Shown in pieces: positions 8,132-9,492 of a DNA stretch of 20,448 bases. The notes below the pieces were generated by a model. That model was not told where the DNA came from and searched no databases. It saw only the letters and a list, made by a program, of their open reading frames with translations. The position numbers and the translations under genes are program-made. Each line of letters opens with the position of its first letter. The first letter of the stretch is position 1. This DNA is from a virus, in IMG/VR virus record IMGVR_UViG_3300042542_001929, positions 1 through 20,448 of that record, one strand, 5' to 3'.

Positions 8132-8581
8132 ATGAGCAAGTTCAGCGACATGGTCGCCGCCCAACGGGACGACACGCCTGCCGATGCGGCATCGTCGATC
8201 CTGACCAAATTGAAGGTCAGCAGCGAGGCCCGAGCGGTACTGCTGCCGGTCGTCGCCAACGCCGTCGCCACGCTTCACCGAGGCAAGGTGCGCCGCATCG
8301 AGCGAGTGGTCGCCGGCATCGTCGTCGCCGTCGATGACGAGGCGCCTGAGATGACCCGCCATGAGGCGCGAATGAAGTTGGCCCGAGAGACGTTCATCAC
8401 CGCCGAGGGCGAGTGTGTCCGCTGGGGCCAGGCGACCGTCGCCCAGCACATGTCCCGCATCGGGCTACTGCACCGCCAGGCCCAGGGGCTCGCCGACACG
8501 ATCGACCTGCACGCCGAGGCGGTCGCCGACATTGAGCGCCACGGCGTCACCTGCCTCGACGACATCCGGGTGGTGGCGTGA
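8132..8581 (+). CDS. Conserved-looking phage protein between the two guide arrays
   Basis: 149 residues. ATG 8132 has AGGGGAAA upstream and is preferred over the in-frame extension, which would translate part of array 1. The protein is mostly helical: SSILTKLKVSSEARAVLLPVVANAVATLHRGKVRRIE, then TRHEARMKLARETFITAEGECVRWGQATVAQHMSRIGLLHRQAQGLADTIDLHAEAVADIERHGVTCLDDI. The last segment ('W-x-ATV-x-xH...RI-x-xL...H...I-x-x-xGVTCL') resembles small proteins of actinobacterial phages and integrative elements, without a known function. It lies between array 1 and the tas-like gene, and its stop overlaps the tas-like start (TGATG), so it may belong to the same system. Confidence 0.68.
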   Translation: MSKFSDMVAAQRDDTPADAASSILTKLKVSSEARAVLLPVVANAVATLHRGKVRRIERVVAGIVVAVDDEAPEMTRHEARMKLARETFITAEGECVRWGQATVAQHMSRIGLLHRQAQGLADTIDLHAEAVADIERHGVTCLDDIRVVA

Positions 8582-9492
8582 TGGACGACAACTTCCACGA
8601 TCTGCGCAGCGGCCAAGGCCATAGCGATGCCCAGGGCCCGGCCGCCGCTGCGCACCTTCTCCCCGACGGCCAAGCCGGTCTCGACACGCATGGCACCCAC
8701 GCCGTCGGGGACACTTTCGGCGGCCAGCCACCGACGGCCATAGTAGCGACGGCAACCATTCCAGACTCGCCGTCGGATGGCTGGCTGGAACTTCGCACGT
8801 TCGCCGAGCTGTACGAGGACACCCAGCGGACCCGTATCGCCTCGGTGAACCGTGTCCGCGCGACCGGGCGGCCAGAGATGTTCGCCAAGCACATCGAGGC
8901 GATGGAGCGCACCGAGCACGAATGCTCGCTGATGCTGGCCCGCTGCTACCGCCGGGTCGTGCCCGCTGCGATCCGGCAATGGCAGCAGGACACACCCGGC
9001 ATCGGTGAAGCCCTGCTGGCCCGCCTGCTCGGCCACCTCGGCCATCCGGTGCTCGCTATGCCGCACCACTGGCAAGGCAAAGGCACCGACCGGCAGCTTG
9101 TCGCCGATGTGCCCTGCGAGCGCACCGTGTCGCAATTGTGGCAGTACTGCGGCCACGGCGACCCCGCCCGGCGCATTGCCAAGGGCATGAGCGCCGAGGA
9201 CCTGGCAGCGATCGGGTCGCCACGGCTGAAGATGCTGGTGCACCTCAATGCCGAGGCGTGCATGAAGTGCGTCGGCACCACTCGCTCGCGCCGCTCGCCA
9301 TACCGAGACGTGTACGAGGCTCGACGACTGGTGACCGCTGACCGGGTGCACGCTGCACCGTGCGTGCGGTGCGGGCCGAGCGGCAGACCCGCCGCCGAAG
9401 GATCGCCGTGGTCGGCTGCGCACCAGCACGCCGACGCCCTGCGGATCGTCGGCAAGGAGATCCTGCGGGACCTGTGGCGGGTGAGTCGGTGA
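8581..9492 (+). CDS. Tas-like protein (Nop / IS110 C-terminal-like domain), no nuclease domain seen
   Basis: 303 residues from ATG 8581 (GTG 8578 is adjacent and in frame). Residues 8-68 are encoded by array 2, and no ATG/GTG/TTG lies in frame between the array and the domain start near residue 70. A helical segment (LELRTFAELYEDTQRTRIASVNRV...) leads to DTPGIGEALLARLLGHLGHP (137-156), a PGIG helix-hairpin-helix-like motif as in IS116/IS110/IS902 C-terminal domains. Then come TVSQLWQYCGHG (182-193) and GSPRLKMLVHLNAEACMKC (212-230), the region equivalent to the Nop-like RNA-binding surface. The C-terminus has SPYRDVYEARR, C261-x2-C264 and a helix ending LRDLW. No RuvC or HNH triad is visible, so an RNA-guided DNA binder rather than a cutter is inferred. 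Alternative: domesticated IS110-type transposase fragment. Confidence 0.68.
   Translation: MDDNFHDLRSGQGHSDAQGPAAAAHLLPDGQAGLDTHGTHAVGDTFGGQPPTAIVATATIPDSPSDGWLELRTFAELYEDTQRTRIASVNRVRATGRPEMFAKHIEAMERTEHECSLMLARCYRRVVPAAIRQWQQDTPGIGEALLARLLGHLGHPVLAMPHHWQGKGTDRQLVADVPCERTVSQLWQYCGHGDPARRIAKGMSAEDLAAIGSPRLKMLVHLNAEACMKCVGTTRSRRSPYRDVYEARRLVTADRVHAAPCVRCGPSGRPAAEGSPWSAAHQHADALRIVGKEILRDLWRVSR
8603..8784 (+). repeat. TIGR-like guide array 2: three hairpin units inside the tas-like reading frame
   Basis: Unit 5 has stem A arms at 8603-8613 and 8644-8654. Unit 6 has stem B arms at 8660-8670 and 8701-8711. Unit 7 has a third, different stem (CCAGCCACCGACGGC at 8724-8738 with GCCGTCGG, a bulged A, and TGGCTGG at 8769-8784). 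All three loops are 30 bases. Central 9-mers are CGATGCCCA (8625-8633), CGACACGCA (8682-8690) and CGGCAACCA (8750-8758). Nine-base variable segments flank each. The different stem of unit 7 with pairing retained argues for selection on structure. The whole array is open in the tas-like frame, giving peptides such as DGQAGLDTH. Confidence 0.7.

Follow-up and report, generated by a model that had tools for sequence, protein, structure and literature searches.

Can one stretch of phage DNA be both the guide array of an RNA-guided system and the beginning of the gene for that system's effector? The question is raised by a virus record of 20,448 bases (IMG/VR record IMGVR_UViG_3300042542_001929; the whole stretch is called the window below), in which our analysis centred on positions 7872–9492 of the plus strand, the strand of all features described here. 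In this region a gene for a Tas protein (tas, 8581–9492) begins with three hairpin units of a TIGR guide array (array 2), and four more units (array 1) precede the partner gene directly upstream of tas (gene 8132, 8132–8581). An earlier note on the window had proposed that the three units are translated as part of tas, so that the same RNA may be both message and guide precursor. We find that coding sequence and guide grammar coincide at this locus, and we infer that ribosomes would pass through the units and that guides would come from the same message. The explanation that we favor, with a probability of roughly 0.8, is a stem-loop TIGR-Tas system of an actinobacterial phage: the effector's coding sequence would have taken in part of the guide array, and its message would also be the guide precursor.

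Guide units in the tas reading frame

Between 7872 and 8776 we found seven hairpin units with a common grammar: stem, CA, nine variable bases, CGACACCCA (or a near variant), nine further variable bases, C, stem. Counting the last C of the stem, a unit reads CCA-N9-CG-loop-CCA-N9-CG, closed by the stems. Faure et al. (Science 2025, PMC12045711) describe such units in their main text as one form of TIGR array, the stem-loop form, in which CCA is box C and box D has two bases. The window has what defines a TIGR array, namely CCA and CG boxes with paired spacers of nine nucleotides (nt) in seven units, and also what defines the stem-loop subtype, namely that palindromic stems replace the edge repeats. 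The stem is 11 base pairs (bp) long in six units; the core stem of unit 7 has 8 bp, and a bulged stem lengthens this unit in the predicted fold. A detector of the unit grammar matched the tas strand 522 times and the reverse strand once in 652 kb (window and related loci), indicating that the units are not chance products. The RNA fold of 8596–8790 has z = −4.7, equalled by none of 200 shuffles.

Array 2 comprises unit 5 (8603–8654), unit 6 (8660–8711; its second box is GCA, and the strict detector missed it) and unit 7 (8731–8776). All three lie in the tas frame, which is open from 8536, and both other frames are closed across them. Up to just past the start of the conserved domain (∼8773–8788), the only in-frame start codons are GTG 8578, ATG 8581 and GTG 8845: no ATG, GTG or TTG stands between units 5–7 and the folded domain. 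An internal start at GTG 8845 was rejected, as this codon lies within the first conserved helix. The list of in-frame start codons thus bears out what the earlier note had claimed, that ATG 8581 or GTG 8578, both upstream of array 2, are the only plausible starts and that array and domain are not separated by another. The note had also taken the three open units to encode an N-terminal tail, in agreement with the predicted structure, where residues 1–60, the part encoded by array 2, are disordered. ATG 8581 overlaps the stop codon of the partner gene in the motif TGATG (8579–8583). That a single transcript doubles as message and guide precursor is strongly implied by the location of the array within the tas coding sequence and by the recurrence of this arrangement in actinophage relatives. 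The openness of the tas frame is by itself unremarkable at this G+C content; it is the comparative evidence that puts the arrangement well beyond chance.

The effector itself, a protein of 303 residues, consists of the disordered tail of ∼60 residues, a coiled coil and a Nop domain, the last two forming the conserved core (8788–9489). It matches the NCBIfam model NF052498 (TIGR-Tas) from residue 71 with 130.4 bits (cut-off 100), a model that all 54 aligned relatives scanned also match, and a profile search finds the solved TasR (9mty, E = 2.3e-28) and TasH (21kl, E = 7.3e-18). The predicted structure (mean predicted local distance difference test score 85.7) shows a confident fold from residue ∼65, with Z∼18 in structural alignment with TasH and with TasR and Z = 13.7 with IS621, and the protein has the Nop domain that characterizes TIGR-Tas. 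Its structured part covers only residues 109–294 of TasR and thus contains no N-terminal RuvC domain; Pfam gives no match of any kind, hence none to the HNH domain of TasH, and outside the coiled coil and Nop domain there is only the disordered tail. The DEDD N-terminal catalytic domain of IS110 is likewise absent, since the alignment to IS621 is confined to residues 125–311. With neither a RuvC nor an HNH domain, the protein is a nuclease-less TIGR-Tas protein of the TasA type, in which the Nop domain stands alone. A CxxC...HxH cluster, possibly metal-binding, is conserved in the C-terminal part of many actinophage Tas proteins (∼9355–9440 in the window); its cysteines are missing in TasR.

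The arrangement among relatives

How common is this arrangement? It is more widespread than the earlier note had proposed. Ten aligned Tas cores served as the query for scans that supplied 80 viral loci, the best 80 of 95 matches, and 9 genome loci; 10 of 85 matching phage records were added, and a further scan kept the best 80 of 92 matches. The resulting 104 records contain 81 distinct Tas genes after removal of three copies of the window (L002–L004) and of identical cores. Units were detected in the open tas frame ahead of the domain in 45 of the 81 distinct loci. In 35 of these 45, which we call forced, no ATG, GTG or TTG occurs between the last unit and the domain, so that translation must pass through the array unless the start codon is non-standard. 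All but one of the forced loci have a start codon upstream of the first unit and at most 4 nt from the stop codon of a frame that is open for 80 codons or more, and in 28 of these 34 coupled loci the overlap reads ATGA or GTGA. In 23 of the 34 coupled loci the first unit comes at +7 to +27 relative to the start codon, a count for which no null was computed.

A quick tree of 78 cores (L014, L087 and L098, partial or distant, were left out) requires 17 changes for the N-terminal in-frame state and 13 for the state with units inside the domain, indicating that units entered or left the coding sequence repeatedly. Five loci (L023, L029, L062, L076, L092) were scored as in-frame by judgement for this tree, and two (L006, L011) as internal despite the strict detector missing their units there. 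Of 396 genomes in the phylum of L103, two exceeded the family cut-off, the L103 genome being one; weak matches were numerous in this phylum and are probably IS110. Public records of the gene differ among themselves: of those for L005, L006, L010 and L011, tas begins after the array in the cluster A record and before it in the Gordonia records, and other public records label tas as a transposase or a helix-turn-helix protein.

Stop codons and codon phase

To judge the frame quantitatively, we counted stop codons over the array regions of the 35 forced loci (∼2,790 codons per frame): there are none in the tas frame and 32 and 71 in the others. The upstream arrays of 22 loci without in-frame units, which served as a control, contain 33, 20 and 28 stops in the three frames. 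The same pattern is seen per unit: a stop in the tas frame occurs in none of the 222 in-frame units, and the shifted frames have stops in 75 and 35. As the zero in the tas frame follows in part from the way the loci were chosen, we used codon phase as a second test. In what we call phase 0, the first C of CCA is at codon position 1 and the unit reads Pro-x-x-x-Arg.

Phase 0 is found in 0 of 222 in-frame units, as against 73 of 178 out-of-frame units, a control that includes some units in the frame of the partner gene. The 222 include units from loci whose true start may follow the array; in a strict set without these loci, phase 0 is again absent (0/172; 127 N-terminal, 45 internal), with a Fisher P of 4e-26 that, like the other Fisher value given here, treats units as independent and ignores relatedness between loci. 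Counted by locus, phase 0 occurs in 0 of 49 with in-frame and 39 of 56 with out-of-frame units (L014 and L083, with scores under 80, are left out of all phase counts). Avoidance of stops alone would leave ∼29% of units in phase 0, as computed. Read in this phase, units would be 31% Arg and Lys, and the CCA and CGA codons that it uses make up 12% and 9% of the Pro and Arg codons of the domains; we suggest that phase 0 is avoided for its Arg and Lys content and for these rare codons. A held-out set of 27 loci, 17 with in-frame units and 11 with internal ones, gave the same picture: phase 0 in 1 of 68 in-frame and 23 of 56 out-of-frame units (P = 8e-9), and stops in 0, 19 and 25 units across the three frames, the tas frame first.

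Units inside the conserved domain

The units are not confined to the N-terminal tail. In the Gordonia phages LonelyBoi, BENtherdunthat and Spooky, an insert of ∼35–37 residues separates SELWAYCG from SNW when compared with phages that lack it, and in the DNA this insert corresponds to two guide units, of which only one was recovered as a clean stem in Spooky. Detected units lie strictly within the domain in 24 of the 81 distinct loci, five of them in L023; the internal count for L061 includes earlier units, because the start of its domain was placed too far upstream. In seven loci, in-frame units occur at the C-terminal end. Since conserved sequence stands on both sides in one frame, an alternative start cannot explain the internal units, and in the internal regions of the 24 loci the tas frame again has no stop, as against 7 and 25 in the other frames.

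The predicted structure of one relative, L080, shows where such units fall in the model. Nine units encode its residues 6–143 and 279–318; most residues of 1–143 and 285–311 are predicted to be disordered and the rest is confident, so in this model the units appear to be placed on disordered tails and a disordered loop. In L101 (Nocardia suismassiliense, 823–3222), Tas seems to be split right after SELWAYC by an intein-like insert of several hundred residues, which adjoins the site of the guide units in relatives.

In-frame units as probable guides

Do the in-frame units still look like guides? Their spacers keep their length (spacer A has nine bases in 214 and spacer B in 216 of the 222 units), and the nine innermost stem positions are 91–100% Watson-Crick paired, with several pair types at most of them. 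No two of the 222 cores are the same. In 19 of the 35 forced loci, some of them with short flanks, every detected unit is in the tas frame, so that the tas message would be the only source of guides there, and on this sequence evidence the in-frame units are probably working guides in those loci. The window and the 15 other forced loci also have units outside the tas frame.

Spacers seem to be replaced as blocks, with stems and linkers staying in place: in 48 same-locus pairs of units from 16 loci whose stems are identical at no fewer than 18 of 20 positions, an average of 5.9 of 18 spacer bases are shared, barely above the 5.1 of other pairs. In the window, too, units with like stems (7872–8654) carry unrelated spacers. 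A search for exact 18-bp targets of the units among 400 that have 9+9 spacers (both orders, gap 0–2) found none in the 652 kb of window and related loci, with hosts and whole phages outside its scope; a search of phage DNA with window positions 7000–11000 gave no match.

Array 1 and the partner gene

Array 1 consists of unit 1 (7872–7923, with a box reading CTA), unit 2 (7929–7980), unit 3 (7995–8046) and unit 4 (8052–8103). The earlier note had stated that units 3 and 4 are open in the frame of gene 8132. Taken literally this holds, as the frame is open from 7964; as a parallel to array 2 it probably does not, because units 1 and 2 contain TAG and TGA in this frame and a Shine-Dalgarno-like AGGGGA (8121–8126) precedes ATG 8132 by 5 nt, which places units 3 and 4 upstream of the likely start. 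We therefore think it unlikely that array 1 is a coding part of gene 8132; it is most likely the untranslated leader of that gene.

The partner protein has 149 residues. In 50 of 66 loci, the window included, the gene before tas belongs to one family (single linkage), in which the window's copy has eight direct neighbors, down to E = 2.8e-16. PHROG 4604 is matched by 17 of 23 partner relatives scanned and not by the window's own copy, and a Pfam scan of the partner proteins gave no informative family. Some TasA loci carry a ParB partner, according to the main text of Faure et al. (PMC12045711); ParB was rejected here, as Pfam gave no ParB match for the 23 partner proteins. Guide units occur inside the partner gene as well, at 2414–2485 in L015, 2309–2356 in L016, 1973–2034 in L029, 2179–2298 in L053 and 2488–2551 in L066. 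Elsewhere in the window, 12-bp repeats at ∼6960–7165 are translated in the gene at 6613–7290 as an Ala-Arg-Asp/Ala-Trp-Asp repeat, and the gene at 11575–12342, a match to phrog_3416, contains an Ala-rich repeat of another kind.

Proposed mechanism and alternative explanations

How, then, might one RNA serve two purposes? We propose that ribosomes finish gene 8132 and would restart at the overlapping ATG 8581, and that translation of units 5–7 would then give a flexible stretch of ∼60 residues in front of the Nop domain, a step strongly supported by the comparison of loci. The same RNA would fold into stem-loops, each carrying two 9-nt spacers that are bounded by CCA and CG boxes; Tas would bind these stem-loops and host ribonucleases would release the guides, as may be extrapolated from Faure et al. 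(2025). A given molecule of the transcript might serve a single role at any one time, or take on the two roles one after the other. More speculatively, a Tas dimer bound to the first unit could keep ribosomes from re-initiating and thereby hold down the production of Tas, since in many loci a unit follows the start codon by 7–27 nt; this position is suggestive of a site for such a block, and autoregulation of Tas through guide processing, which the earlier note had raised, is plausible from the layout of the locus. As the effector contains no nuclease domain, the loaded complex would, judging from its family, bind or bend an 18-bp target instead of cutting it.

A broader generalization, which we offer tentatively and would give somewhat less than even odds, is that the TIGR-Tas array is an in-frame insertable cassette in actinobacterial phages. 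Units would enter the effector (tail, Nop loop, C-terminus) and the partner in a phase that avoids stops and an Arg-rich reading, spacers would be swapped wholesale, every message would carry guides, and binding of hairpins near the start would tie the loading of guides to the synthesis of Tas.

Several observations weigh against the explanation that we favor. One forced locus, L017, has no coupled start, and one held-out in-frame unit (in L152, borderline and at the score threshold) is in phase 0. In 10 of the 45 loci with N-terminal in-frame units an in-frame start follows the array, and five of the ten show a good or weak ribosome-binding motif by eye; some open frames over arrays are thus accidental. 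An internal start is likely instead in L025, L027, L034, L068 and L077, where such a motif (weak in L068) and a start come after the array. Finally, the arrangement is missing from 36 of the 78 relatives in the tree, so the system can work without an in-frame array. Relatives such as the cluster A mycobacteriophages Zephyr, Chanagan and Sumter count in favor of our explanation, however: their array is out of frame and is followed by AAGGAGG and a GTG start.

Could the overlap of gene and array in the window be such an accident, with an array that is truly upstream and a Tas protein made from a non-standard start such as CTG 8788? Stops are rare at this G+C content, and the five relatives just named show that an open frame and a later start can go together. 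We nevertheless consider this very improbable, given that 34 of 35 forced loci have a coupled start ahead of the array and that units lie within the Nop domain in 24 loci; chance openness of a G+C-rich frame is rejected by the frame-shifted stop counts and by the codon phase, seen again in held-out loci, with out-of-frame arrays as the control. It is also doubtful, if less so, that the in-frame units are relics that serve only as a linker peptide, with array 1 alone making guides. The out-of-frame units of the window and 15 other forced loci would fit this, but the boxes, 9+9 spacers and compensated stems are kept in frame about as well as, or better than, out of frame, all in-frame cores differ, and 19 forced loci have no other detected unit (flanks being short in some). 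We regard as unlikely, too, though somewhat less so than relics, a separate transcription of array 2 from a promoter inside gene 8132, which would let translation and guides use different molecules: a consensus scan of 7300–9700, of a kind that predicts actinophage promoters poorly, found no sigma-70-like and no terminator-like site (shuffles gave 0.3 and 0.5), and such a transcript would still run into tas.

The alternative closest to our explanation is a variant of it that differs only in the origin of the guides. Tas would be translated first and the guides salvaged later, as Tas-bound hairpins that outlast the decay of the message, which would save space without any regulation. In the main text of Faure et al. 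(PMC12045711), Tas is needed for the accumulation of guides but does not itself cut, and the ends of stem-loop guides are variable. Salvage also fits the units in mid-gene, at the gene end and in the partner gene, where occlusion of the start is not expected; the first unit at +7 to +27, in contrast, resembles the geometry of an operator, subject to the same lack of a null. We give salvage close to an even chance. Under our preferred explanation, coding sequence and guide grammar share one transcript, so one RNA is both message and guide precursor.

Comparison with known systems

To our knowledge, a guide set that doubles as the coding sequence of its own effector has not been described for any array-based RNA-guided system, and guides that double as coding sequence, including that of a conserved RNA-binding domain, seem to be new for such systems. 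With this arrangement it becomes possible to test how TIGR guides are made, whether Tas regulates its own production, and how spacers change when they must serve as guide and as codons at once. Such loci can also be mis-annotated, by gene callers and by guide finders alike.

It is instructive to compare the locus with its nearest counterparts. IS110 transposases, guided by a bridge RNA, share a Nop-like fold (Z = 13.7 to IS621) and a dual-guide RNA, and they differ in their DEDD nuclease domain, which the window protein lacks, and in having one bridge RNA where the window has an array. The box C/D small nucleolar ribonucleoprotein shares through Nop5 the Nop domain with a coiled coil (1nt2, fibrillarin/Nop5p, Z = 7.2, weak by the tool's own note), as well as dual guides with boxes C and D; it differs in its fibrillarin partner, of which none is seen here. 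The CCA and CG boxes are also different from those of small nucleolar RNAs.

In TnpB systems the omega RNA scaffold overlaps the 3′ coding end of TnpB. As proposed for the window, the guide comes from the effector's own message, and negative feedback has been suggested, according to Nety et al. (2023, PMC10278001), where a single 3′ guide scaffold is cut by TnpB, a protein of an unrelated family. In the window, in contrast, several complete guide units are spread through the coding sequence. We found no such case in the open literature or in the available part of a review (PMC12385481), supplements and closed papers being outside this coverage.

The closest counterpart remains the stem-loop TIGR-Tas system, with which the locus shares, as described in the main text of Faure et al. 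(PMC12045711), a Nop-domain Tas, palindromic units in which CCA (box C) and CG (the position of box D) flank each of two 9-nt spacers, and a TasA without nuclease. In that work the arrays sit upstream and/or downstream of tas, and a search of its main text, as distinct from its supplement, finds no mention of in-frame guide units. The units of the window and of many relatives, by contrast, occupy the tas frame, and relatives also have them inside the Nop domain and inside the partner gene.
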